This document shows positions 239 through 19,188 of a DNA stretch of 20,236 nucleotides, in pieces; the first letter of the stretch is position 1; each line of letters begins with the position of its first letter. The notes below the pieces were generated by a model that worked only from the letters and a program-made list of their open reading frames with translations, was not told where the DNA came from and made no database searches. This DNA comes from a virus, in the IMG/VR virus record IMGVR_UViG_3300009502_000250, positions 1 through 20,236 of that record, one strand, 5' to 3'. Made by a program: the position numbers and the translations under genes.

Positions 239-1903
239 ATGGAAATTAAAAACATACTAGAAATAATTAAATATAACAAAGATAGTTACGTCCAGATGAT
301 AAAATCAAAACATAAATCATTCTATACTGAAATTGTAGAAAAATATGAAGGAAACTCATTTGGAGAGAAATTATTCATTCATATTTATGGAACATTTAAA
401 TGTAAAAATTGTGGCGGAAAAGTTAAATTTTTATCATTCCAAACAGGCTACAATAAATATTGTTCTAGAAAATGCTCTAATGAGGCATCCGCATCAATCC
501 GTTCTCTCTCTATTAGAGAAACATATAAAAAAAATCATTATAATCATTATGAAATAATAAATTGTGCTATATGTGGAGAAAAATTCGAATCACTGAAGTA
601 TAGAAATCAAAAATGTTGTTCCACTAAATGTAGTGGAATATATGTGTCAAAAATGCCAGATAGAATCGAAAAAATAAAATTAACAAAATTAGAAAAATAT
701 GGAAATCCTACTTATGTAAATCCAGATAAAGCAAAGAAAACTTGTTTGGAAAAATATGGAGTGAATAATGTAGGATTACATCCTCCTATAAAACAAAAAA
801 TTAGAATATCATTTTTAAAATATTATTTACATAAATTAAAATCTTCAAATAGATTGAAAAATCTAATTGAACCTTTATTTACAGAATCCGATTTTAAAAG
901 CACATTTAGAAGTAATATTTATCCATTTAAGTGTAAAAAATGTAATTCTATATTTAATGATAATTTAGACGATGGCCGGGTTCCACGTTGTTTAAAATGT
1001 TATCCGATATTATCTGGAAAATCAGATGGTGAAAGAGAAGTTTCCTCTTATATAAAGAGTATTGTTAATACTATATTGGAAGAAAATAATAAAACAATAT
1101 TAAATGGAAGAGAATTGGATATATTTTTACCACAATTTAATGTGGCAATAGAGTATGATGGATTATATTGGCACGGACAGGTTCATGGTAATAAAAATTC
1201 TATGTATCATCTTAATAAAACAAATGAATGTAATTCTAAAAATATAAAGTTAATTCATATATTTGAAGATGAATGGTTATATAGACAGGATATTGTTAAA
1301 AATAGATTGAAATATATTTTAGGAGTTACTTCTAATTTAAAGAAAATACATTCACGTAAATGCGAAATAAGAGAAGTAGAATATAAAGAAGCCGATATTT
1401 TTCTGGATGAATATCATATTCAGGGGTCTATTAAATCTCATATAAATCTTGGATTATATTACAATAATGAATTAATATCATTAGCAACATTTGGAAGTTC
1501 TAGGATATCAAATGGAATACGAGCTATTTCTGGAGAATATGAATTGTATAGGTTTTGTTCTAAATTTGGTTATTCGGTAAGGGGTGGAATGTCTAAATTA
1601 TTGTCATACTTTATAAAAACTTATAATCCAAATAAAATTATAACATATGCCGATAAACGATGGAGTATTGGTAATTTATATAATAAGATTGGATTTAATT
1701 ATGTGGATGATACCTCCCCCAATTATTGGTATGTGAAAGCCGGGGGAAATGTCAGATATCATAGATTTGGCTTTAGAAAAGATCAACTTACTAATAAATT
1801 AACTATATATGATCCACTATTATCGGAATGGGAAAATATGCAATTAAATGGTTATGATAGAATATGGGATTGTGGAAATATGAAATTTGAATGGAACAAA
1901 TAA
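239..1903 (+). CDS. VSR/EDxHD-type homing endonuclease with zinc fingers and C-terminal acyltransferase-like domain
   Basis: A 554-residue free-standing phage nuclease. Three CxxC...C(x2-3)C knuckles lie at about residues 55-79, 109-131 and 232-254. Between the second and third are two copies of an LEKYG element (151-155 and 170-174), a repeat typical of phage homing nucleases and thought to contact DNA. The nuclease core shows ELDIFLP (292-298), EYDGLYWH (305-312) and HIFEDEW (340-346), the pattern of very-short-patch-repair-like homing enzymes of the I-Bth0305I group. Residues of about 385-515 (SVRGGMSKLL, then YADKRWSIGNLYNKIGF) look like the GNAT-like tail domain often fused to these proteins. 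It should cut DNA at a specific site to spread itself; the target site is not visible here. The ATG follows a good promoter and ends 13 nt before the ClpP-like gene. Confidence 0.82.
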   Translation: MEIKNILEIIKYNKDSYVQMIKSKHKSFYTEIVEKYEGNSFGEKLFIHIYGTFKCKNCGGKVKFLSFQTGYNKYCSRKCSNEASASIRSLSIRETYKKNHYNHYEIINCAICGEKFESLKYRNQKCCSTKCSGIYVSKMPDRIEKIKLTKLEKYGNPTYVNPDKAKKTCLEKYGVNNVGLHPPIKQKIRISFLKYYLHKLKSSNRLKNLIEPLFTESDFKSTFRSNIYPFKCKKCNSIFNDNLDDGRVPRCLKCYPILSGKSDGEREVSSYIKSIVNTILEENNKTILNGRELDIFLPQFNVAIEYDGLYWHGQVHGNKNSMYHLNKTNECNSKNIKLIHIFEDEWLYRQDIVKNRLKYILGVTSNLKKIHSRKCEIREVEYKEADIFLDEYHIQGSIKSHINLGLYYNNELISLATFGSSRISNGIRAISGEYELYRFCSKFGYSVRGGMSKLLSYFIKTYNPNKIITYADKRWSIGNLYNKIGFNYVDDTSPNYWYVKAGGNVRYHRFGFRKDQLTNKLTIYDPLLSEWENMQLNGYDRIWDCGNMKFEWNK

Positions 1904-1916
1904 CTATATATATTAT

Positions 1917-2492
1917 ATGGCCATTATTTTACCCATCCCAAAAGATAGAACTTTATTATTTAATAAAGATGTTACACAAATTACAATAGGAGAATTGACC
2001 ACCTCAATATTAGAAATTGAAAATGATGATGTATATATTAAACAATTATATAAATTACATAATTTAGAATATTCACCAAATCCAATTAAAATATATATTG
2101 ATAGTCATGGTGGAGACGTATATCATTGTTTGGGATTACTTGGCATAATGTCACATTGTAAAACTGATATTCATACAATTGTGACTGGATGTGCAATGAG
2201 TGCCGGTTTTATGATACTCATTACTGGACATAGACGGTTTGCATATAAACATTCCACTTTATTATATCATCAAATTAGCTCTGGTGGAGGATGGGGATCA
2301 TCGACTTTATGTGAACAATTGGAAGAGATAGATGAGACGGAAAGATTACAAAAAATATTAGAGCGGCACATTTTAGATCATACTAAAATAAACAAGGAAA
2401 AATTGAAAAAAATATACGAAAATAAAACTGATTGGTATATGACTTCGTTGGAAGCCTTGAAATTTGGATGTGTTGACGAAATTATATCCTAA
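1917..2492 (+). CDS. clpP: ClpP-like ATP-dependent serine protease subunit
   Basis: A 191-residue ClpP-fold peptidase. The signature IDSHGG (61-66) corresponds to INSPGG of bacterial ClpP. The triad is readable as Ser95 in GCAMSAG, His118 in LLYHQ and Asp172 in KTDWYM, with spacings close to those of cellular ClpP. The C-terminal SLEALKFGCVDEII matches the usual helix ending in G(L/I)VD. The frame is open upstream to a TTG at 1887, which overlaps the previous gene; the ATG at 1917, in the tat-ATG context shared across this genome, is preferred. No ClpX or ClpA partner is visible, so it would have to use a host unfoldase, act alone, or serve as a maturation protease for phage proteins. It lies just before hsp20, which suggests a small proteostasis module. 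Confidence 0.88.
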   Translation: MAIILPIPKDRTLLFNKDVTQITIGELTTSILEIENDDVYIKQLYKLHNLEYSPNPIKIYIDSHGGDVYHCLGLLGIMSHCKTDIHTIVTGCAMSAGFMILITGHRRFAYKHSTLLYHQISSGGGWGSSTLCEQLEEIDETERLQKILERHILDHTKINKEKLKKIYENKTDWYMTSLEALKFGCVDEIIS

Positions 2493-2501
2493 AAAAAATA
2501 C

Positions 2502-2529
2502 TTGACATTTTTTCAATCTGTGTTATATT
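2502..2529 (+). promoter_or_regulatory. Strong sigma70-like promoter of hsp20
   Basis: Perfect TTGACA (2502-2507), a 16-bp spacer, then TATATT (2524-2529) preceded by TGT, an extended -10. It is flanked upstream by an A-tract (2491-2498) that could act as an UP-type element. Start of transcription is predicted near 2536. Confidence 0.72.
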
Positions 2530-2535
2530 TATAAT

Positions 2536-2556
2536 TGTAGTATGAAAAATACTACA
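2536..2556 (+). promoter_or_regulatory. 5'-terminal stem-loop in the hsp20 leader
   Basis: TGTAGTAT (2536-2543) pairs perfectly with ATACTACA (2549-2556) around a GAAAA loop. The 8-bp stem begins almost exactly at the predicted transcript start, so the mRNA would open with a hairpin, a layout known to stabilise mRNAs such as ompA. A smaller hairpin, CTAC-TTGT-GTAG, follows at 2564-2575. Confidence 0.5.
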
Positions 2557-2627
2557 TCATATGCTACTTGTGTAGGTATGATAAAAAACAAACTATAGAT
2601 AAACAACTATTATAGAAAGGTAAATAT

Positions 2628-3125
2628 ATGAATACTAATAAATTAGTCCGTTACAATGCTTATAATCCATCACTATTCACTAGTAGGGATGAATTTCTAA
2701 CTCCATTTACTTCATTATATGATGAAGTTTTCAATTCCTCATTTCCCGATTTGTTCGCTAATTTTGGAATTGATTTTTATGGAAAGAATTCATATCCAAA
2801 AGTCGATATTCAAGATAATGAAACTTCGACGCTTATTGAAGCGGAAATTCCGGGTTTATCCAAAGATCAAGTTTCTGTTGAAATTAAGGATGATGTTTTA
2901 ACTATTAGGGGTGAAAAACAAGACAAGAAAGATTATTCTACTGGTTCTCAATGCATTCATAAAGAATTGAAAAAATCTTCATTTAGCAGAAGTTTCTCAC
3001 TAAATTCCAATTATGACAAGGAATCTGTTGCTGCCAAATTTAATAATGGAATTCTTGAAATTACATTGAAAAAACTAAAACCAACACCTAAAAAAGAAGA
3101 ATCTAGAAAAGTAGAAATTAAATAA
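2628..3125 (+). CDS. hsp20: Hsp20 family small heat shock protein (alpha-crystallin domain)
   Basis: A 165-residue small heat shock protein. The N-terminal arm (about 1-52) is rich in Phe and Tyr. The alpha-crystallin domain (about 55-150) contains AEIPGLSKDQVSVEI, DDVLTIRGEKQ and the closing NGILEITLKK. The tail ends in KVEIK, whose V-x-I matches the C-terminal anchoring motif used for oligomer assembly. Such proteins hold unfolding clients without ATP. Hsp20 genes are known in marine T4-like phages. This is the only gene in its unit: promoter at 2502, leader of about 90 nt, AGAAAGG Shine-Dalgarno seven bases before the ATG, and a terminator 21 bases after the stop. It has one of the few good ribosome binding sites in the window, which fits strong expression. 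Confidence 0.95.
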   Translation: MNTNKLVRYNAYNPSLFTSRDEFLTPFTSLYDEVFNSSFPDLFANFGIDFYGKNSYPKVDIQDNETSTLIEAEIPGLSKDQVSVEIKDDVLTIRGEKQDKKDYSTGSQCIHKELKKSSFSRSFSLNSNYDKESVAAKFNNGILEITLKKLKPTPKKEESRKVEIK

Positions 3126-5974: not shown

Positions 5975-8290
5975 ATGGCTGATGTTCGAACTAAAGAAAC
6001 CGATCCAAAAATTGTAGCAGAGTATAATAATTTGTTAAAAAATACTAATGATACTCTTTCCGATATGCTTGGAATATCGGAAAAATTAAATATGAGTTGG
6101 AATAACCGCATACAGCGACAAGGACAACTTGCGAGTATCCTAAATAAAAGCAGAACTGAAGAAATTGAAGCTCAGAATGGACTTGGGAGATATTTCGGCA
6201 TACGGGAGACTGAACAAAAAATAATAGTATCTTCTATAAAACAAAGAATAAAAGAAGAAGAAAGGGAGATGGCACTTCTTAAATTTATGAATGAATCTGG
6301 GATTGGTCCATTCCTTTATATAGCCGAACAAACTTGGAAATTATTTTTAGAAATGGATAAAGCAGTTACGGTGTTTAATAAAACAATGGGAATGTTACGT
6401 CAAAATACAGCAACCATACAATGGAATGCACAAGAAATTGCAATTTCACTTATGAGTATGGGTGTAACCATTGAAGGTGTTTATAAATCCGCAGTGGCAT
6501 TATCAAATTCATACGGAAGTATTTATATCGTATCTCAAGAGTTAATAATCGCATCATCGTTACTAAACGCTCAATTAGGAGTATCTGAAGAAATATCTGC
6601 TGGATTTTTTAAAAATATGGCATTTATATCGGGGACAACTATGGAGAGTCAAAAAAATATGGCATATATGGCAGGAGCATTAAGCAATGCCGCTGGAACT
6701 AATTTATCACAAGTAATGGGAGATGTCGCATCCAAGTCAAATAATACTTTATTGTTAATGTCGAGAATTCCGGAAATTGCAATTAAATCGGCAACTGAAT
6801 TTAGAAGATTAGGAACTTCGATGGATACAGTGGCCGATACTTCTCGTCATATTCTAAACTTTACGCAGAGTGTTCAGGAAGAAATGGAAGCGTCTGTATT
6901 ATTGGGTCATGCTATAAATTTACAAAAAGCCCGTGAATTAGCATATCATAGAGATTTAGAGGGGTCCAATCGTGAAATTTTAAGATTGACCAAACAAAAT
7001 AGATTTAATCAACTTGATGTATTTCAACAGGAAGCATTTGCCAAAGCAACCGGAAGAAGTGTAAGCGAGTTGCTTAATATGGTTCAAGCTGACAAGGAAT
7101 GGAATGATGCTAGACGCAATGGAACGGATAAACTTAAAGACCAAATTAAAGCATATGATCAATTAAAAGAGGCCAATGATAATATATTAAAAGATAAAAC
7201 TAAACAATTCGAGATGGATGTTCAGACAAAATCAAATCAAGAGAGAATGGTAGCAATTCAACAAAAATGGAACCAGTTAGTTGCTCAGGTTTCATCTTTT
7301 CTTTTACCCATTATTGACTGGGCATTGGCAATTGTTCCTGCTTTATTTCCTGTTATATCATTATTCGTAGGAGCATATAAAATTTTAAGAGATATTGAAT
7401 TGACAGCCGGGAAGATATATAGTATATTTAAAGGAGTAGGAATAATTGCCCTTATATCTGGCAAAACAGTAGATGGAATTATGTTGTTGTTTAGAATTCC
7501 AAAAATAATAGGTTCTATGTTATATATTCCTATTATGTTTTCAAAATTAGGAAAATATATAACCCCCTTCATTGATTTTTTTATTGGACTTGGAAAATTT
7601 GGAGGATTGTTAGGAACATTCGGGGAAGCGATACCTATTATCGGAGAAATAATAACCGCATTTCAATTTTTATTTGGATTCATTAGAGGATTTGAGAATA
7701 CACAAGGAGGATTTTGGGCTAAATTATGGGGTGGACTGAAAACTGGATTGTTGGCAGTTGTTCAGCCCATACTAGATATATTCAAAGGAATAATAAATTG
7801 GATATGGTCATTTTTTTCAAACTCTCCTTTATTTGGTCATTCACCTTCTAAATTGGGACTTGCTATAGTTAAAGGAATTATATCAGTTGGAGCAATGTTA
7901 TATGATGCTTTAACTTGGCCATTCAGACATGCGTTTGCATGGATATTGGATCATGTTCCGGGAATGTCTAAATTTGCCAATGGATTACGAGAAGGTGCTG
8001 GGGGAATATCAACTAAAGTAAATCATAGTATAGATACTTTAACTTCAACGCCACAAAAAACACCGGAACAATCTCTAACGGAAACCAAAAAACAAACAGA
8101 ATCATCTAACCAACAGGTAGATCAGAACGATACATCCAATAAATTATTACAACAAGTTATTACGGCTATAAATAATCTTAGACAGGATTTGAATGATGGA
8201 AAAATAGGAGTTAATATTGACAGTCAGAGGTTGTCAAGTGTTATGGCTCGAAATTTAAATTTCAGCGGAGGATTTGGAACTAATCATTAA
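5975..8290 (+). CDS. Tail tape measure protein
   Basis: A 771-residue protein. The N-terminal third is charged and helical (coiled-coil-like to about residue 105). The middle is rich in Ala, Met and Ser helices. Strongly hydrophobic helices cluster at about residues 439-680, as expected for tape measure proteins that fill the tail tube and later contact the host membrane. The motif GHSPSKLG (621-628) inside this part is a hallmark of phage tape measure proteins. The Gln/Asn-rich C-terminus ends in the short domain containing DGKIGVNIDSQRLSSVMARN. The protein sets tail length and helps start tube polymerisation. It stands first in a tightly packed tail unit, the next gene starting 5 nt after its stop, and diverges from the gp26-like unit. 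No Shine-Dalgarno precedes the ATG. Confidence 0.85.
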   Translation: MADVRTKETDPKIVAEYNNLLKNTNDTLSDMLGISEKLNMSWNNRIQRQGQLASILNKSRTEEIEAQNGLGRYFGIRETEQKIIVSSIKQRIKEEEREMALLKFMNESGIGPFLYIAEQTWKLFLEMDKAVTVFNKTMGMLRQNTATIQWNAQEIAISLMSMGVTIEGVYKSAVALSNSYGSIYIVSQELIIASSLLNAQLGVSEEISAGFFKNMAFISGTTMESQKNMAYMAGALSNAAGTNLSQVMGDVASKSNNTLLLMSRIPEIAIKSATEFRRLGTSMDTVADTSRHILNFTQSVQEEMEASVLLGHAINLQKARELAYHRDLEGSNREILRLTKQNRFNQLDVFQQEAFAKATGRSVSELLNMVQADKEWNDARRNGTDKLKDQIKAYDQLKEANDNILKDKTKQFEMDVQTKSNQERMVAIQQKWNQLVAQVSSFLLPIIDWALAIVPALFPVISLFVGAYKILRDIELTAGKIYSIFKGVGIIALISGKTVDGIMLLFRIPKIIGSMLYIPIMFSKLGKYITPFIDFFIGLGKFGGLLGTFGEAIPIIGEIITAFQFLFGFIRGFENTQGGFWAKLWGGLKTGLLAVVQPILDIFKGIINWIWSFFSNSPLFGHSPSKLGLAIVKGIISVGAMLYDALTWPFRHAFAWILDHVPGMSKFANGLREGAGGISTKVNHSIDTLTSTPQKTPEQSLTETKKQTESSNQQVDQNDTSNKLLQQVITAINNLRQDLNDGKIGVNIDSQRLSSVMARNLNFSGGFGTNH

Positions 8291-10482: not shown

Positions 10483-10797
10483 ATGATAAATGATTATTCG
10501 TCACGTTATGCTAACATTTCATCTTCAATAAGATGGGATGGGAAACAAGTATATTCATCTGTTACCTATCCAATAGTTACCCCTCAAGATAGTGATATAA
10601 CAATTATAACTAATGATACAACGTATATAGATTCATTGGCATATAAATACTACGGTGATTATTCTCTTTACTGGATTATATCATTGGCAAATTCTGGGCT
10701 TGGAAATGGAAGATTATCGGTCCCGGCTGGACTTCAGCTTAGAATACCGATGAATGTAAATTCTATTATAACAAGCTTTAAAAATCTAAACCTTTAA
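10483..10797 (+). CDS. gp53-like baseplate wedge protein / LysM-type tail protein
   Basis: A 104-residue protein. The core at about residues 42-90 reads DTTYIDSLAYKYYGDYSLYW, then IISLANSG and, after a glycine turn, VPAGLQLRIP. This is the layout of T4 gp53 (Phage_gp53 family) and of tail protein X, both LysM-related: an onset strand, Y-x-D-x-x-L/YW, ALAN-like helix and a final P-G-x-x-L-x-I-P strand. In T4, gp53 joins wedges around the hub. It lies 12 nt after the preceding gene and 1 nt before the next one, as part of the tail unit. Size and motifs agree well with the family, but gp53 cannot be separated from tail protein X by eye. Confidence 0.75.
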   Translation: MINDYSSRYANISSSIRWDGKQVYSSVTYPIVTPQDSDITIITNDTTYIDSLAYKYYGDYSLYWIISLANSGLGNGRLSVPAGLQLRIPMNVNSIITSFKNLNL

Positions 10798-10798
10798 T

Positions 10799-13267
10799 AT
10801 GGCAACAACGTCAAGTCCAATATTTATTCCTTGGGAAGTTCAAAATATTCCATCCCAAATACAACTTGAATTTTCAAGACGAGAGGGAATGCGAGGATTA
10901 AATTATGTTGATCCAGTTCAAGGAGATTGGGGAAATTCGAGCGGCACCAATAAATGGCAAAATTATAAAGGACCACAGACGCCTTGGATACGAATTACTA
11001 GCAATGGATATGGTTCAGAAGCAAATAAGAATAATATTAACCCCGGTTTTATATTGGCATCTCCTAGTAGTTTTTTTAATAGTTATGGATTTAACAAATC
11101 CAATGACGTAAATAAAAGTATAATAGGATACCAGCCGGATGCTTCGTTCACCCCACATACGATAACAAATAATAAAAATCAAGCGGCATATTCGATTCAC
11201 GTCCCACCTCCACAGATAGAAAATATAAGTATAATCGTTCAACATGAATTATATAGAAAAGCAACTATAAATTGGATATGTTTTTCCAAGCAGCAGTTAG
11301 AGTATATGATTCCGTATTTTTCAATCCCTAGTTTAACATTTGTATTAGAATGGGGATGGAACAATTTTAATACTTCTAATTTAATAGATCTCTCCATTTC
11401 AAATTTAACTTCATTATTTCGAGATCCATACCAATTATATTCAAAGGTTATAGGTTCAAATGGAACTTATGATGCTATGTTAGGAACTGTTAGTAATTTT
11501 AGTTTTTCATCCGAAGGAAATAAATTTAAATGTATGACCGAAGTGTCATCCAGAGATAGAATGTATTCTGGGATATTGTTAACGTCTGTAGTGGAAGACA
11601 TTCCGGTTGATAATGATGGAAAATCATCAACCGAAACCCCCGATTCATCAATTTTACCATTCGGAAGTTTGATTGATTTTATTGACAATCGAATAGATCT
11701 TCTAAGATCTGTATTGGATAAAAATAGCAATTTATATAAAGGAACTCCGGTTACTTCCGATGAATTATTATTGACTTCGTTTATAAATTATGTAAAATCA
11801 AAAAGAAAAGATAATTGGAGAGAATACATATTCGGAATATTCTATGGCCGAGATCTTAATCCCATTGATGACGATATAGATTCTTCCATAAGGAATCCAA
11901 AAGATTTTGACATACAATCGCCACAGAAAAACATCTGGGTTAATTTGGGACTTGTAATTGACGTTTTTAATTTTTGTAATAGATATCTCGGAACAAAAAC
12001 CGGAGATGAATTTTTCAGAATTGATATAGATGATATTAAAATAAGCGCACATAGAAATATGATATCAGCGGATGGCAGTATATTGTTAATTCCTAACTGT
12101 GATGCTCCTAAATATTTATATGGTCTCGCCGCTACAGATTATAATAGTATATCAAAGGATGATATATCAAAAATGTCAGTAAGTTCACATTTTAAGAAAA
12201 AATCAAATACTGGAGGAGATCCATCTGATACAAGATTACAAAATATTTGTGCTCAACCGGGAGGATCATTTAGAGATGATTTGGATGAACTTATTAATAA
12301 TGGTAGATATAGTAATGGGGTAGATCCGTATAACTCCACGTGTGAATTTCCAACCGGTGTAGATTTTACAACTGGCTATTTAAAAAATCTATATGTTAAT
12401 ACATCATTTCTTAAAAGGTTAATACACGACACAGGGATTAAAACATATACTGATTTAATAAATAAAATGATGGAATCTATAAATGGTGCATGTGGAAACT
12501 TTTGGGATTTTAGATTGGTGTCATCTACTGGAAATCCGTTTCCTGATGGACAACAATCAACTATGAAAATAGTTGATATAAAATATATTCCAGATAATGT
12601 AGGACTTCCTTATACGTTTAAACACTTGTCCGATAATTCTATATTGACATCATTAGAATTTAAACCGACCATTAGCGATGCTCAAGCAATTCGTTCATTG
12701 TATGCTGCTACTAATATACGAAAAAACGCAACTTCCAAGCTTAATAATGGATCTACTGAATTATTAGACTATATGTTTCGGGATAGATTATTTTTAAATA
12801 ATGCTATAAAAAATTCAAATGATGTTAAAAACGTTAAAATTAAAATTGACAGGATATCACTTATTAAAAATTTACAAACCTTAGATCCAACTCCGGAAAT
12901 GTTTCAGATGACCTCGAACTCACACGGAAAAGTAATCATACGTAGATTGGCACTTCCTTCAACCGAAGTATTGAATATGCTACTCGACGATGGAGATTAT
13001 GATAATAATCCAACCTATGTCGGAATAATGCCAGGAATTCAAGCTACATTTACTCTTCAGGGTATAGGTGGATTGCGAACATTTATGTTGTTTCTTGTCG
13101 ATGGACTTCCCGAACCATATAGTTCGAATAATATCGTTTTCCGTATAGTAAATTTAACAGAGTCAATCGAAGCTGGGAAATGGACCACTGCTATTACCGC
13201 TGGCGTAATTCCATTGCGGAATGGAGTTCGGAAAAAACTTGGACTTCCGCCAATTATAAATACTTGA
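10799..13267 (+). CDS. Large baseplate hub-like structural protein
   Basis: An 822-residue protein. Residues of about 136-188 contain PPPQIENISIIVQHELYRKA and FSKQQLEYMIPYF, followed by LTFVLEWGWNN; the closing (V/L)LEWGW strand is a recurrent feature of large phage baseplate proteins. The middle is a long mixed domain. The C-terminal 80 residues contain GIGGLRTFMLFLVDGLP and FRIVNLTESIEAGKWTTAIT, which resemble the domain of gp27/gpD-type hub proteins (receiving a loop, then a VxHxIxxGxWxTxL-like strand). A hub or hub-associated role is inferred. The gene ends the packed tail unit; the last codons overlap a T4-late-like TATAAATA box at 13255. Its start codon follows the gp53-like stop by one base. 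Confidence 0.68.
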   Translation: MATTSSPIFIPWEVQNIPSQIQLEFSRREGMRGLNYVDPVQGDWGNSSGTNKWQNYKGPQTPWIRITSNGYGSEANKNNINPGFILASPSSFFNSYGFNKSNDVNKSIIGYQPDASFTPHTITNNKNQAAYSIHVPPPQIENISIIVQHELYRKATINWICFSKQQLEYMIPYFSIPSLTFVLEWGWNNFNTSNLIDLSISNLTSLFRDPYQLYSKVIGSNGTYDAMLGTVSNFSFSSEGNKFKCMTEVSSRDRMYSGILLTSVVEDIPVDNDGKSSTETPDSSILPFGSLIDFIDNRIDLLRSVLDKNSNLYKGTPVTSDELLLTSFINYVKSKRKDNWREYIFGIFYGRDLNPIDDDIDSSIRNPKDFDIQSPQKNIWVNLGLVIDVFNFCNRYLGTKTGDEFFRIDIDDIKISAHRNMISADGSILLIPNCDAPKYLYGLAATDYNSISKDDISKMSVSSHFKKKSNTGGDPSDTRLQNICAQPGGSFRDDLDELINNGRYSNGVDPYNSTCEFPTGVDFTTGYLKNLYVNTSFLKRLIHDTGIKTYTDLINKMMESINGACGNFWDFRLVSSTGNPFPDGQQSTMKIVDIKYIPDNVGLPYTFKHLSDNSILTSLEFKPTISDAQAIRSLYAATNIRKNATSKLNNGSTELLDYMFRDRLFLNNAIKNSNDVKNVKIKIDRISLIKNLQTLDPTPEMFQMTSNSHGKVIIRRLALPSTEVLNMLLDDGDYDNNPTYVGIMPGIQATFTLQGIGGLRTFMLFLVDGLPEPYSSNNIVFRIVNLTESIEAGKWTTAITAGVIPLRNGVRKKLGLPPIINT
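13255..13262 (+). promoter_or_regulatory. T4-late-type promoter box candidate (TATAAATA)
   Basis: A perfect match to the T4 late promoter octamer, 37 nt before the ATG of the polymerase A-like gene; transcription would start near 13269. In AT-rich DNA such octamers occur by chance, and no late sigma factor gene is visible here. Confidence 0.3.
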
Positions 13268-13299: not shown

Positions 13300-14649
13300 A
13301 TGATTGAGAATAATTCAGATTTTGATAATTTTAAATCCAAAATTGGAGGTGATGATTTATTTATTCATATAATCCCGATAGATAATAAATTACATTCCGC
13401 CGATAATAAAATAAGTTCTATTTTTATTAAACATATAAAATCGAATGTTACATTTTATATATCTATAAATCATCCAGATTCAGTTGCTTCAATTGAGTTG
13501 AAAACAAAGATGTTACAGTATTTATTATATTCATTAAATGTTAAGTGGGTAGTCGATAAAAAATCCTTTATTCAATTACTAAATTGTAAAAATATAAATG
13601 ATATAAATCTGGTTTCTTATTTGAGTGAAAACAAAATTTTAAAACTAACAGATTATTCAACGTCGGCGCATGATTTTTTATATCGGACATTTGACATATC
13701 AGGAAATTTAAATCAGGCAATTCCAATACAAAAACATTTAGAATTATTTGAAGATATATGGTCTGATGTTGAAACTATAATAAAATCAGCCAGCTTGGAT
13801 ATGGCTTATTTTAATATAAATAATATTATTATTCCTACATTGTCAAACATAGAAAAACGTGGAATGTATGTGGATAGAGAGTTATATTATAGACAATATT
13901 CTAAATACCCATCTTCTGATATTATATATAGTGAATACAATTTATATACTTCGACTGGAAGACCATCTAATAAATTTAATAATATTAATTTCGCAGCATT
14001 GAATACGACAGATGGAACAAGAGATAAGTTTATTTCTCGATATGGAAAAGATGGTAAAATGGTTCTGATAGACTATAATGCGTTTCATCCACGTATAATA
14101 TGTTATTTAACCAATTATAAATTGGATAACTCAGTCGATATATATCAGTACTTGGCAAAATTATATTTTCAAAAACAGATAGTAACCGTAAGTGAAATCA
14201 AAGAATCAAAGAAAATTACATTTCGCCAACTTTATGGTGGGATTGAAGATAAATATTCTCATATAAAATATTTATCTAAATTGAAAGAGTATGTTTTTAA
14301 ACAGTGGGAATTTTTTCAATCTAATGGATATGTTTTGACTCCTATATTCAATCGAAGAATAACCAATAAACATATCCTTGAACCAAATCCCTATAAGTTG
14401 TTTAATTATATATTACAGGCATTTGAGGGGGAAGTTGCTATTTCGAGATTAAAATTAGTTGAGGAATTTTTAAAAAACAAAAAAACAATGCCGGTTTTAT
14501 ATACCTATGATTCGATTCTTTATGATTTTTATGTCCCGGATGGTGATGAATTACTCGACCAGATTATAAAAATTATGACGTTTAATGAAATGTTTCCGAT
14601 TAAACTTTTTATCGGGACTTCATATGGCAATCTTACGCAACGATATTAA
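13300..14649 (+). CDS. Compact family-A DNA polymerase-like protein lacking a thumb domain
   Basis: A 449-residue protein with readable Pol I motifs. Residues of about 172-194 (IPTLSNIEKRGMYVDREL) match the start of the Pol A palm. TGRPS (219-223) equals TGRLSS. Motif A is LIDYNAFHPR with Asp258. Motif B holds KKITFRQLYGG (304-314), with Lys, Phe and Tyr of the O helix. NYILQAFEGE (369-378) equals the NxxIQGxxA helix, and motif C is TYDSIL with Asp404. Both metal-binding aspartates remain, but E. coli Glu710 is His263, His881 is Tyr403 and Glu883 is Ser405. Only about 25 residues separate VDREL from TGRPS, against about 120 in Pol I, so the thumb is essentially missing. The first 170 residues look like a degenerate exonuclease domain. 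It lies between tail and head-type genes, which is odd. The ATG follows AGGGGTG at close spacing. Confidence 0.75.
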   Translation: MIENNSDFDNFKSKIGGDDLFIHIIPIDNKLHSADNKISSIFIKHIKSNVTFYISINHPDSVASIELKTKMLQYLLYSLNVKWVVDKKSFIQLLNCKNINDINLVSYLSENKILKLTDYSTSAHDFLYRTFDISGNLNQAIPIQKHLELFEDIWSDVETIIKSASLDMAYFNINNIIIPTLSNIEKRGMYVDRELYYRQYSKYPSSDIIYSEYNLYTSTGRPSNKFNNINFAALNTTDGTRDKFISRYGKDGKMVLIDYNAFHPRIICYLTNYKLDNSVDIYQYLAKLYFQKQIVTVSEIKESKKITFRQLYGGIEDKYSHIKYLSKLKEYVFKQWEFFQSNGYVLTPIFNRRITNKHILEPNPYKLFNYILQAFEGEVAISRLKLVEEFLKNKKTMPVLYTYDSILYDFYVPDGDELLDQIIKIMTFNEMFPIKLFIGTSYGNLTQRY

Positions 14650-14690: not shown

Positions 14691-15359
14691 ATGGATAATT
14701 TAATAGATTATATTTTATCAGAAGTCTCTGTAGACCAAAGAGTTATGGATGGAATTTTCAATATTGAAAATAACGATCATATGACTGTTTTATATGAGTA
14801 TTTCGTTAATCACGGACTATCCGAACGTGAATCTACACAAATAATAAATGGCATGGTCGAGGGTAAATTTCCAGATAGACAAGCATTTAATGTTGATAGT
14901 GGAAGAACCACTACATTTTCATCTAAAGAACGACGAGATGCTGCTATTAAAGCAGGAACACATACGTTGAAAGAACCGGCTAAGCCACAGATGAAGGAAC
15001 CAACTGAAAAACCATTGGATGACTCAGGAGATAAAGAGGTTCCGAAATTAGAACCGACTCAACCTGAAAGAGAACCTAATATATTTCAGAATGGACATCA
15101 ACTTGAGGTAGAGCCTTTGGGCGGATCATCAAACGATATAAATGTGGATAAACCTTCTGCTCCGGTTGTTCAATCACAAACTCCAAATCAAATTGCGGCA
15201 ACCAAACTAGTAGTAAAACAAATAATAGGAAGTGACAACACCACATTATCAAATTTGGTTCCTTCTCTTAATCTAAAAGAAGAATTATCTATTTTATTAA
15301 AAGAAGCTAGTCGATTAAATTTCAAAGAATCTGTTACATTTCTGATACAGCACATCTAA
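14691..15359 (+). CDS. Putative virion protein with LxE-type N-terminus and RQAFN motif
   Basis: A 222-residue protein. The start MDNLIDYILSEVSV is a short amphipathic helix ending LSE before Val12, compatible with a T4-type prohead protease site. Residues of about 35-92 contain FVNHGLSERES, FPDRQAFN and TTFSSKERRDAAIKAGTH; from memory, a P-x-RQA(Y/F)N...TF-x-S-x-E-x-x-x-A-x-x-x-GTH pattern recurs in phage structural proteins. The centre (about 93-160) is Pro, Glu and Lys-rich and probably disordered. The C-terminal 60 residues are predicted helical (KLVVKQIIGS, NLKEELSILLKEASRLN). No catalytic motif is visible. The gene starts 41 nt after the polymerase-like gene and precedes a small hypothetical gene by 26 nt, probably in one transcript. 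Confidence 0.6.
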   Translation: MDNLIDYILSEVSVDQRVMDGIFNIENNDHMTVLYEYFVNHGLSERESTQIINGMVEGKFPDRQAFNVDSGRTTTFSSKERRDAAIKAGTHTLKEPAKPQMKEPTEKPLDDSGDKEVPKLEPTQPEREPNIFQNGHQLEVEPLGGSSNDINVDKPSAPVVQSQTPNQIAATKLVVKQIIGSDNTTLSNLVPSLNLKEELSILLKEASRLNFKESVTFLIQHI

Positions 15360-15385: not shown

Positions 15386-15772
15386 ATGAATTCGATAAAT
15401 CGACAACTCCTCTGTACTTTCTGTAGTTCCGATAATATTTCCAAAACATTAGATTTAATATATAATACGTATGATAATTGTAATCGGGTATTTATATTTT
15501 CAAATTTTAAAAATAAAAATGAATGTTATTTGACCTATAATGTAATAAACAATATTAAAAAAATTCCAAATACAATTTTAATACATCGAAAAAAAGAATT
15601 TAATATTCTCTACACCATCAATAGTCTTAACCAATTAATACGTGATGAGAATGGCGGAGTGTTTGACAAATCATATATTGTTAATTGGAAATTATACGAG
15701 AATTCTCTTATTATCAATGGAGATATTTCTGTAAAAATAATCCAATTGAAATTTGAACGTATGGAGTTTTGA
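15386..15772 (+). CDS. Conserved-looking hypothetical phage protein
   Basis: A 128-residue soluble protein with no transmembrane segment. It begins LLCTFCSSDNISKTLDLIYN and contains NTILIHRKKEFNILYTINSL followed by NQLIRDENGG. The alternating pattern suggests a small alpha/beta fold: strand-helix at the N-terminus, then a central IHRK-x-x-x-N-x-LYTIN-x-LN-x-L segment, then beta strands. I recall similar segments from uncharacterised T4-like phage proteins but cannot assign a function. It lies between a putative virion protein gene and the gp32 unit. The ATG lies in a catt-ATG context and follows AAATAAATAAC rather than a Shine-Dalgarno. Confidence 0.6.
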   Translation: MNSINRQLLCTFCSSDNISKTLDLIYNTYDNCNRVFIFSNFKNKNECYLTYNVINNIKKIPNTILIHRKKEFNILYTINSLNQLIRDENGGVFDKSYIVNWKLYENSLIINGDISVKIIQLKFERMEF

Positions 15773-15903: not shown

Positions 15904-16734
15904 ATGGCACTTAACATAGAAAAACTACAAAACAAACTTAAACAATTAGAATCTGGAAAGAAAACAGTAGACTTCAATCGTCTTCTTTGGAAGCCCAAAG
16001 AAGGTTCTCAAAAAATCAGAATAGTCCCTTATCGTCCTAATGGTGAAGAACAAGATTCTCCGTTTATTGAATTGAAATTTTATTACAAATTCAATGGAAT
16101 TGCGTCCATATTGGCACCTTCTACCTTCGGTAAGCCCGATCCTTTTGAAGAGAGATATGAGGCTCTTACTACCAATGGAACTACGGAAGAAAAGGAATTA
16201 GCAAACAAGCACTTTAAGTCGGTTGCTAGAACTTATGTTCCTATTATTGTCCGTGGAGAAGAGGATCAAGGGGTTCGTTTCTGGGGGTTTGGGGTTACTG
16301 TATATAAGCAATTACTTTCTTATTGTAATACCGAATGGGGTGATATTACCGACTTGCGTGAAGGCAATGATATCGAAGTAAGGTTCACTGAAAAGGGTCA
16401 GAAAATTGATAAGAAAACAGGAAAGCCTTTTCCCGAGACAAATATTATTCCAAGTCCAAAGAAAACTTTAGCGGTATCTCCTACTAATAAAGAGGCTATG
16501 GAAAGCATTCGAAAACAATTGGATATTACTCAAGTATTCCCATTAAAGACATACGAAGAATTGGATGCTATAATCGAATCTTATTTGACTCCCGAAGGAC
16601 AAGAGCCTTCATCTTCGGAAGTTGAAAAAGCATCGGCAACCATTGATAAAAAGGACGTTGTTGAAACCGCAACCCCAGTTCCATCTGCGGCAGAAGAGGA
16701 AGACTTTCAGAAGTTTTTTGCGAAATCTTCTTAA
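15904..16734 (+). CDS. 32: gp32-like single-stranded DNA-binding protein
   Basis: A 276-residue relative of T4 gp32. A basic N-terminal cooperativity-type region (1-25) precedes the core: WKPKEGSQKIRIVPYRP (29-45), PFIELKFYYKF (53-63), APSTFGKPDPFEE (71-83) and SVARTYVPIIVRGEEDQGVR (106-125), then FWGFGVTVYKQLL. This order and the aromatic-rich strands are those of the gp32 OB fold. The C-terminus is disordered and acidic and ends EEEDFQKFFAKSS, as in proteins that use this tail to contact replication partners. The zinc-binding His/Cys set of T4 gp32 is absent; only Cys141 is present. It coats single-stranded DNA in replication and recombination. The gene is a single unit with its own promoter, leader and terminator. 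Confidence 0.9.
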   Translation: MALNIEKLQNKLKQLESGKKTVDFNRLLWKPKEGSQKIRIVPYRPNGEEQDSPFIELKFYYKFNGIASILAPSTFGKPDPFEERYEALTTNGTTEEKELANKHFKSVARTYVPIIVRGEEDQGVRFWGFGVTVYKQLLSYCNTEWGDITDLREGNDIEVRFTEKGQKIDKKTGKPFPETNIIPSPKKTLAVSPTNKEAMESIRKQLDITQVFPLKTYEELDAIIESYLTPEGQEPSSSEVEKASATIDKKDVVETATPVPSAAEEEDFQKFFAKSS

Positions 16735-16852: not shown

Positions 16853-18034
16853 ATGGCAAAAGAAAAAAATATAAATACAAAATCAAAACATGTAGAAGTG
16901 GAATCTAATGTGGGTAGAGATGAATTGGCAGTAACATTACATAATGCATTAAACAAATCATCTAAAGATGGTACTAAATCTGCATATTGGGTGGACGATG
17001 ATGATAATCCGTCAATAATACGAGATTGGGTTTCTACCGGATCAACTCTTTTAGATTTGGCTATTTCTAATAGACCACATGGAGGTCTTCCGGTTGGACG
17101 AGTGGCAGAATTATCTGGCCTTGAAGGAACTGGAAAATCTTTGATGTGTGCTCATATTATTCGTGAAACCGAAAAAAAAGGAGGATTAAGTGTGTTTTTT
17201 GATTCTGAATCGGCTATTGATAGAAATTTTTGGGTAGCATTAGGAGTCAATATTAAAAATACAAATTATTGTCCGTTTACTACTCTTGAGGATTTGTTTA
17301 AAAAAGTAGAGTTGTGTATTGGAGAATTTAGAAAATCTTCTCATGATAGATTATTAACTATTTTCATTGATTCAGTAGCACAGGCTACTATTGAAAAGGA
17401 GTTGGAAGCCGAACACGGTATTGATGGATATAACACAGGAAAATCTTTGATCTTAGGGAAGGCATTCCGAAAAATAACCGGAATTATTTCACGAGAAAGA
17501 ATTTTAGTTGTATTTACAAATCAACTTAGATTTAATATGAATTCTGGACCGTTTGGTGATAAATGGACAACTCCCGGTGGAAAATCTTTAAGTTACACTG
17601 CTTCTACAAGAGTACGTCTTGGGACTATTGGAAAATTGAAAAAGAACAATGAAGTAATTGGTGTTAAATGTACCTGTGCAGTTATTAAAAGCAGAATGGG
17701 ACCGGGAGCAAGAGGGGCACAATTCGAGATTCATTATGACTCTGGAATTCAGGATTTAGCAAGCTGGCTTAATTTTTCCAAGGAACGTGGAATTATAACA
17801 GGAACGGCAGCAAAATATTCTTGGAAAAGAACAAATGGAGAAACTATGGAATTCAATACTGCTAAATTCGTAGAACTTATGAATTCAGATAAAGATCTAA
17901 AAGAAGAGTTCTATCAAGTTATTTGTGATAATTATATAATGCATTATAGAGATCCAAATTCCAAGATTGTAGAAGATGTTGAGGAAGTTTCGGATGAAAC
18001 TCCACCAGAAACAGAATCCAATTCCGATGAATAA
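16853..18034 (+). CDS. uvsX: UvsX/RecA-like recombinase
   Basis: A 393-residue RecA-fold ATPase. Walker A is GLEGTGKS (89-96), the catalytic glutamate is Glu119 in FFDSESAID, Walker B is LLTIFIDSV (167-175), and the DNA-binding loop L2 region is at about 224-246 (TNQLRFNMNSGPFG, then TTPGGKSLSY). The helix before residue 60 and WVSTGSTLLDLAIS (59-72) match the start of the RecA core. The last 60 residues are acidic. It should form a filament on single-stranded DNA coated by gp32 and exchange strands during recombination-dependent replication. It has its own promoter directly after the gp32 terminator and is followed by a terminator, then FEN. The motifs are closer to RecA than to the divergent T4 UvsX. 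Confidence 0.93.
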   Translation: MAKEKNINTKSKHVEVESNVGRDELAVTLHNALNKSSKDGTKSAYWVDDDDNPSIIRDWVSTGSTLLDLAISNRPHGGLPVGRVAELSGLEGTGKSLMCAHIIRETEKKGGLSVFFDSESAIDRNFWVALGVNIKNTNYCPFTTLEDLFKKVELCIGEFRKSSHDRLLTIFIDSVAQATIEKELEAEHGIDGYNTGKSLILGKAFRKITGIISRERILVVFTNQLRFNMNSGPFGDKWTTPGGKSLSYTASTRVRLGTIGKLKKNNEVIGVKCTCAVIKSRMGPGARGAQFEIHYDSGIQDLASWLNFSKERGIITGTAAKYSWKRTNGETMEFNTAKFVELMNSDKDLKEEFYQVICDNYIMHYRDPNSKIVEDVEEVSDETPPETESNSDE

Positions 18035-18102: not shown

Positions 18103-19188
18103 ATGAGCGAATTAGATGATAAAAAAAAGTTATTTTCATTTTTTAAGAATATTAAATCTGAAATGAAAGATTCTCATCTTAACTGGAGAGAAAAAACCAA
18201 TAATCATATTTTAATAGTAGATGGAAATAATTTATTTATAAGAGCATTTTGTGCTACGGTTTCCATGAATTCCAATGGGGAACATAGTGGTGGAGTAGTT
18301 GCTTCTCTAAAATCTTTAGGAGCAGCAATTAAATTATTAACCCCCTCTCGTTGTATTGTAGTATTTGATGGTGTTGGCGGTTCTCAGAAAAGAAAAGCTA
18401 TTTATCCAGATTATAAGGCTCATAGTGCAAATAAAATTAGATTGAATAGAGTATATGATGACGATGTTACTCCTCAAAATGAAGATGAACAAAAACAGAA
18501 AGAATATCTTCAATTTATAAATTATCTTCGAGTATTACCTGTAAACATAGTAAGTGAAAATATGGTAGAAGCCGATGATGTAATATCCTATCTGGCACTT
18601 GATCAGTTTAAGAACTCCAAAAAAGTAACTATTATGTCAACTGATAAAGATTTTTTACAGTTGGCAAGTTCTAAAGTTCAAATATATTCCCCCACTAAAA
18701 AAAGAATATATGGGGTAAACGAAGTAATTTCAGAATATAATATCCATCCAAATAATTTTGTTCTATTTAGAAGTATGGACGGAGACAAAAGTGATAATAT
18801 AGACGGAATTGAGCGGGCCGGTCTTAAAACCGTATGTAAACATTTTCCATATCTAAAAGAAGAAACTATTCATACCATAGATGAAATTGTTACTCATGCA
18901 ACCGATATGAGAAATAAGTTTGTAGTATGTGAAAACATTGTTTCTAATAAATCTATAATCGAACGTAATTATGCGTTAATGCAGTTAAAAGATACTATGT
19001 TGGGAGTTACTTCACAGTTACATCTTCACGAAATATTAGCTGAAAATAAAATTCCAAAGTTGGATAGAAACGCATTTTTTAAATTCATAAGAAACGATAG
19101 ATTAGATGTAAATATGCCAGATTATAATAAATGGGTTTCTGATGTATTTTCTTTTTTGGATAATCAAGTAAGAGACGGAGAATTATAA
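18103..19188 (+). CDS. rnh: RNase H/FEN-type 5'-3' nuclease (T4 rnh-like)
   Basis: A 361-residue flap-endonuclease-superfamily enzyme. The PIN-type core shows ILIVDGNNLFIRAF (36-49; Asp40), FDGVGGSQKRKAIYPDYKAH (88-107; Asp89), VEADDVISYLA (155-165), MSTDKDFLQLAS (178-189; Asp181, Asp183) and MDGDKSDNIDG (225-235), so the acidic metal-binding residues are present. A helix-hairpin-helix-like element follows (IERAGLKTVCKHF). In T4 the relative removes RNA primers of Okazaki fragments and interacts with gp32. It is last in the plus-strand replication block and converges with the minus-strand gene at 19297; the shared terminator lies between. No Shine-Dalgarno; ATG in an atat-ATG context. Confidence 0.9.
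   Translation: MSELDDKKKLFSFFKNIKSEMKDSHLNWREKTNNHILIVDGNNLFIRAFCATVSMNSNGEHSGGVVASLKSLGAAIKLLTPSRCIVVFDGVGGSQKRKAIYPDYKAHSANKIRLNRVYDDDVTPQNEDEQKQKEYLQFINYLRVLPVNIVSENMVEADDVISYLALDQFKNSKKVTIMSTDKDFLQLASSKVQIYSPTKKRIYGVNEVISEYNIHPNNFVLFRSMDGDKSDNIDGIERAGLKTVCKHFPYLKEETIHTIDEIVTHATDMRNKFVVCENIVSNKSIIERNYALMQLKDTMLGVTSQLHLHEILAENKIPKLDRNAFFKFIRNDRLDVNMPDYNKWVSDVFSFLDNQVRDGEL

Follow-up and report, generated by a model that had tools for sequence, protein, structure and literature searches.

A polymerase gene at the head of a replication and recombination cassette

The window, a 20,236-nucleotide stretch of viral DNA (IMG/VR record IMGVR_UViG_3300009502_000250, positions 1 to 20,236), contains an intact open reading frame of 449 codons that encodes a thumb-less protein related to family-A DNA polymerases (Table 1). 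Tape-measure and baseplate-type genes lie farther upstream, followed by a baseplate-wedge-like gene (phrog_7145, 10483-10797) and then by the gene for an 822-residue protein, which has no Pfam or PHROG name of its own and which has a homologue in 61 of the 63 polymerase loci with room upstream. On the other side, the order polymerase, (T222), S128, SSB, UvsX, 5'-3' exonuclease and DnaB is shared with the phages immuto and Mel-JY01, with LR756508 (484 kb) and with nearly all IMG/VR loci. Across the 57 loci whose sequence reaches 4.5 kb or more downstream, S128 is found in 55, the SSB and UvsX in 56 each and the exonuclease in 52. The polymerase gene heads a replication and recombination cassette, right after the baseplate genes. 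An earlier note on this sequence had placed it among structural genes and outside the replication block; it does follow baseplate genes, but it is also the first gene of the SSB-UvsX-exonuclease-helicase cassette.

Table 1. Features of the polymerase locus, with positions in the window
Feature	Position	Strand	Evidence
822 aa protein, whose gene closes the tail/baseplate block directly before the polymerase	10799..13267	+	follows phrog_7145 gene
divPolA1-type thumb-less family-A DNA polymerase, 449 aa, ATG start	13300..14649	+	ORF, Pfam/PHROG, homologues, model, conservation
N-terminal degenerate 3'-5' exonuclease-like domain, residues 1 to about 165	13300..13794	+	global profile alignment to Pol I, column counts
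Place of the missing thumb, G188-Y213	13861..13938	+	profile alignment, column counts
Motif A, residues 255-267 VLIDYNAFHPRII: catalytic D258, H263 (E710 in Pol I)	14062..14100	+	profile alignment, conservation
Motif B / O-helix, residues 300-314 IKESKKITFRQLYGG: K304, F308, Y312	14197..14241	+	profile alignment, conservation
Motif C, residues 399-411 VLYTYDSILYDFY: Y403 (H881), catalytic D404 (D882), S405 (E883)	14494..14532	+	profile alignment, conservation
T222, 222 aa protein between polymerase and S128, in about a third of loci	14691..15359	+	
S128, conserved 128 aa alpha/beta companion protein	15386..15772	+	
gp32-type single-strand DNA-binding protein (SSB)	15904..16734	+	PF08804 E 3.8e-11, phrog_224
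UvsX/RecA-like recombinase	16853..18034	+	PF00154 E 2.8e-40, phrog_97 E 2e-63
5'-3' exonuclease (Pol I N-domain / T4 RNase H type)	18103..19188	+	PF02739 E 1.9e-28, phrog_107

A single coherent phage clade could account for part of the shared gene order and co-occurrence. Polymerase distances correlate equally with those of the baseplate gene and of the exonuclease gene (r 0.81 for each; 0.78 for S128), and thus clade-wide inheritance explains part of the linkage.

Whereas UvsX is uninterrupted in the window, in the 353 kb contig L005 (11948-14672) it is broken at Walker A, between GLEG and TGKS, into two open reading frames. Their ends resemble an atypically split intein, with a very short N part (CVTEDTLIEVIIE) and a C part of about 115 residues ending in MLNHN; between the halves lies a separate 361-residue reading frame, probably a homing endonuclease, and the interruption matched no Rfam intron. 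UvsX is also interrupted in other relatives, near Walker A in L040 and around residues 238-255 in L061 and L149, the L149 insert (7099-8196) encoding a DUF559 protein. Elsewhere in the window, positions 239-1903 encode a 554-residue protein with cysteine-rich, zinc-finger-like repeats, whose C-terminal region resembles the Mom DNA-modification family (PF25680, E 4.3e-5) and DUF7487, and positions 1887-3125 contain adjacent genes for a phage ClpP protease and an Hsp20 small heat-shock protein.

Assignment to the divPolA1 family

Judged from the single sequence, the similarity to family A is weak but real. Pfam PF00476 matches the 449-residue protein with E 1.3e-5 and 24.8 bits, below the curated cut-off of 34.3; the immuto divPolA1 protein, at 42.7 bits with Pfam DNA_pol_A, lies above it. 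The DNA polymerase family phrog_17 matches the window protein with E 3.5e-13, and a family profile built from 70 relatives matches E. coli Klenow in the PDB (E 5.6e-11), aligning residues 205-439 to Pol I 651-919 with 97% probability. By canonical family-A standards the protein nonetheless departs in its Pfam score, in its thumb subdomain and in the Glu expected at position 710.

A family with these features was named divPolA1 in 2024 from 14 phages with genomes of 155-190 kb, and was described as having a truncated thumb, an inactive exonuclease, a conserved palm and a replication neighbourhood, and as occurring beside a regular polymerase (Virol J 2024;21:200, PMC11348598). The window protein is homologous over most of its length to the type example, from Flavobacterium phage immuto (MW353176 gene 1; tblastn E 1e-39, 31.7% identity, 79% of the query covered), and shares the short thumb, the conserved palm residues, the dead exonuclease domain and the downstream SSB, UvsX and exonuclease genes. 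It is a new member of this already published family. Rhodothermus phage RM378, considered as a precedent, gave no match to PF00476 and none in a tblastn search; it has a PolB instead.

The family comprises at least 586 IMG/VR loci and extends to phages of 353 and 484 kb, while cellular genomes yielded two matches only, both on short MAG contigs. The available part of the text of the divPolA1 paper makes no mention of the invariant His263 and Tyr403 or of S128 (PMC11348598). New relative to that paper are the at least 586 loci, the larger genomes, the invariant His and Tyr, the occurrence alongside a replicative polymerase as well as a DnaG-type primase, and S128.

Two other groups are comparable by their published descriptions. 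The divPolA2 proteins of barbaviruses are likewise extra family-A proteins without a normal thumb, found alongside a regular polymerase, but they have an unrelated N-terminal domain and variable neighbourhoods, whereas the window protein has an exonuclease-derived domain and a fixed neighbourhood (PMC11348598). The TV-Pols of mobile elements are also small family-A-related polymerases, but they keep a coiled-coil thumb and have no linkage to a nuclease domain, the opposite of the arrangement in the window (Iyer et al., 2008, PMC2579912).

Predicted fold and the absent thumb

An AlphaFold2 model of the protein is confident along its whole length (pLDDT 95.5, pTM 0.92) and predicts a Klenow-like fold, with a TM of about 0.76 to Klenow. 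Foldseek ranks Klenow, M. smegmatis Pol1, Pol nu and Pol theta highest, with E near 1e-18 and TMq reaching 0.78, and a Foldseek search of BFVD returned phage PolA proteins. The earlier note had read an atypical, thumb-less family-A polymerase-like protein from the letters and had named structure prediction and structural search as the check; the predicted palm and fingers, the matches of Pol I and Pol theta type and the size of the thumb bear that reading out.

The span that holds the thumb in Pol I (G544 to Y659, 116 residues) is reduced here to 26 residues, starting at the Gly that ends the helix with IEKRG and ending at the Tyr that precedes the TGR motif; palm and fingers come after it. 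Across the family the span has a median of 27 residues (range 13-32).

The N-terminal domain, exonuclease-like as in Pol I, appears to have lost its active site. Alignment to Pol I shows the acids of exonuclease motif I replaced (D355 by I24, E357 by P26). D424 possibly corresponds to D86, an Asp in 40 of 70 members, in a stretch that aligns with low confidence. The divPolA1 exonuclease has been described as a dead domain with all three aspartates replaced (PMC11348598); the window protein agrees with this at D355 and E357 and may keep D86 at the D424 position.

Active-site residues are conserved across a divergent family

With E. coli Pol I/Klenow (1kfd, 1d8y) the protein shares, besides the palm and fingers fold, the two metal-binding aspartates (D258 and D404, for D705 and D882) and R221 (R668), K304 (K758), F308 (F762), Y312 (Y766), Q373 (Q849) and, in most members, N369 (N845). 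It differs from Pol I in H263 (for E710), Y403 (for H881), S405 or its Ala counterpart (for E883) and the loss of R754, and in that the 5' nuclease is encoded by a separate gene within the same cassette. The residue assignments of the earlier note for both aspartates and for the three substitutions were correct on this profile alignment.

Conservation at these positions is close to complete. D258 and H263 are present in 98 of 98 members and Y403 and D404 in 97 of 97; position 405 is Ser in 75 and Ala in 22, that is, one or the other in all but one member; and K304, Y312, Q373 and R221 are invariant or nearly so (98 members). Because this first sample was chosen by patterns containing motifs A and C, a search bias is possible. 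We therefore turn to an independent sample of 33 further polymerases, picked through the nearby S128 gene and without use of the polymerase sequence: where covered, all have D258 (32/32), H263 (32/32), Y403 and D404 (33/33). Median identity among members is only 33%. The two findings that the earlier note had named as refuting its reading, a model lacking palm and fingers and homologues that vary at D258 and D404, are thus both contradicted by the data. On these alignments the unusual residues are family signatures and not decay. In family A, E710 is said to be universally conserved and to contact the incoming nucleotide (PMC4882331), which makes the invariant His a true mark of this family. 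With E710, H881 and E883 replaced and R754 lost, the protein might catalyse poorly or act on another substrate.

The losses of the thumb, E710, H881 and E883, together with the adjoining baseplate genes, would fit a catalytically dead relative with a structural, loading or regulatory part in the replisome, or a virion protein. We consider this very improbable: the catalytic Asp pair and the equivalents of Lys758, Tyr766 and Gln849 are invariant or nearly so despite the low identity among members, and the conserved downstream neighbours are replication genes. Comparison with the polymerase of L005, a relative with 76% identity, gives dN 0.16 and dS about 1.0, a dN/dS of about 0.16 that indicates purifying selection on the gene. 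The idea of a remnant with a structural job, raised before this analysis, is not supported, given the same invariant positions and the same ratio.

A thumb-less palm and fingers could also be imagined to act at 3' ends without gripping duplex DNA, as a template-independent nucleotidyl transferase or an end-filling enzyme for genome ends. This we find barely credible, since the conserved R221 and Q373 point to templated synthesis and the neighbourhood contains nothing that concerns genome ends.

An extra polymerase in genomes that have a primase

Because the window record is a 20 kb fragment, coexistence with other polymerases and primases was read from the genomes of relatives. Phage immuto encodes a separate 778-residue PolA besides its divPolA1, and L005 an 870-residue family B polymerase; PolB is also present in Mel-JY01, LR756508 and L008/L011. 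In these relatives divPolA1 comes in addition to the main polymerase, as expected from the earlier suggestion of a specialised enzyme that is not the main replicase.

A DnaG-type primase, matching phrog_47, occurs in all six of the largest carriers examined (99, 160, 178, 190, 354 and 484 kb), which are the genomes of immuto, Mel-JY01, LR756508, L005, L098 and L106. The four carriers without a DnaG-type primase match are all partial contigs of 70-90 kb. A role as replacement primase, which the loss of E710 and the nearby helicase had brought to mind, was rejected, since the six largest carriers all have a primase of their own.

These genomes also bear on the reading of the protein as a polymerase that uses or tolerates ribonucleotides, whether as an RNA primer maker or as an RNA polymerase. 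H263 is invariant at the position of E710, the residue with which Pol I selects against ribonucleotides; motif C reads YD[SA], which recalls the HDS of T7-type RNA polymerases; and 11 of 98 members have Met at the F762 position, the residue found there in T7 RNA polymerase. Primase activity has, moreover, been argued for the related TV-Pol family (Iyer et al., PMC2579912). We nevertheless regard this reading as unlikely. A bulky His may still exclude ribose, most members keep a DNA-polymerase-like Phe at the 762 position, the top Foldseek matches are all DNA polymerases, and no primase is missing from the six largest carriers, which also weakens the role in primer synthesis proposed earlier.

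The companion protein S128

S128 is predicted with confidence as an alpha/beta protein and has invariant residues H67, R68, Y76, N79, N82 and W101. A fold search gave no significant structural match, and comparison with PHROGs gave scattered weak matches only and no significant database match. In the phage collection S128 was found in the six records with divPolA1. Among 80 IMG/VR loci selected by S128, 50 have the polymerase upstream within the fetched flank. The 30 loci without a polymerase in the 5 kb flank had suggested that the pairing is not exclusive, and many of their contigs end too early to judge; in the six longer contigs searched, divPolA1 lies farther upstream in 6 of 6. Seen from the S128 side, no testable case breaks the pairing. 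From the polymerase side there is one exception, locus L066, which has the other cassette genes but no S128. The pairing could also stem from clade-wide inheritance.

Other genes occupy this interval in some relatives. Within the L153-L171 sub-lineage (for example L158, L159 and L162), divPolA1 and S128 are separated by an inserted gene that can reach about 1,500 codons, and after S128 comes a peptidoglycan-binding, chitinase-like gene. In Microcystis phage Mel-JY01 (L003:13880-15166), a protein with an S-adenosylmethionine lyase domain (PF23780, E 4.4e-10) is encoded between S128 and the SSB.

One conjecture makes divPolA1 and S128 the two parts of a single polymerase: S128 (or the SSB) would replace the thumb, and the invariant His would confer a novel selectivity, such as tolerance of rNTPs. 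We think this unlikely; if true, it would mean a nucleotide selectivity unlike that of other family-A DNA polymerases.

Proposed function

The reading we favour, with about even confidence, is that divPolA1 is an active, distributive DNA polymerase without proofreading, which would carry out short-patch synthesis on SSB-coated DNA together with the 5'-3' exonuclease, UvsX or both. The conservation of template-side and metal-side residues argues for templated nucleotide addition, and the missing thumb and proofreading argue for brief, short-patch synthesis. The neighbouring genes point to action on SSB-coated DNA, either with the 5'-3' exonuclease in primer replacement or with UvsX.

In mechanistic terms, the protein has kept the palm, the fingers and both metal-binding aspartates and has lost the thumb, with the dead exonuclease domain probably retained as a scaffold. 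A polymerase without a thumb would hold the primer-template only briefly and add few nucleotides per binding event, and a partner, the SSB or S128, perhaps holds the DNA in the thumb's place. Its most likely job would be gap filling after the neighbouring 5'-3' exonuclease removes RNA primers, in effect a Pol I whose nuclease and polymerase are encoded by two genes, as gene adjacency suggests. In T4, however, the main polymerase suffices. Alternatively, the favoured enzyme could extend recombination intermediates made by UvsX.

A rival reading is a translesion, end-joining or D-loop-extending repair polymerase that works with UvsX, in a role like that of Pol nu or Pol theta. Its neighbours UvsX, SSB and exonuclease, the absence of proofreading and the high rank of Pol nu and Pol theta in the fold search are all consistent with such a role. 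The Klenow match is equally good, however, and adjacency alone cannot tell repair from Okazaki maturation; we hold the repair role to be possible, though somewhat unlikely.

Significance

The divPolA1 family is far more widespread than reported. Many large T4-like phages have a second, accessory polymerase in their recombination and replication cassette, whatever the family of their main polymerase. The thumb counts as a basic element of polymerases that copy a template, and a large family that has lost it while keeping an invariant active site offers a natural test of the minimal requirements of a family-A polymerase. Its break with the universal Glu710 likewise offers a natural test of how nucleotide choice is controlled.
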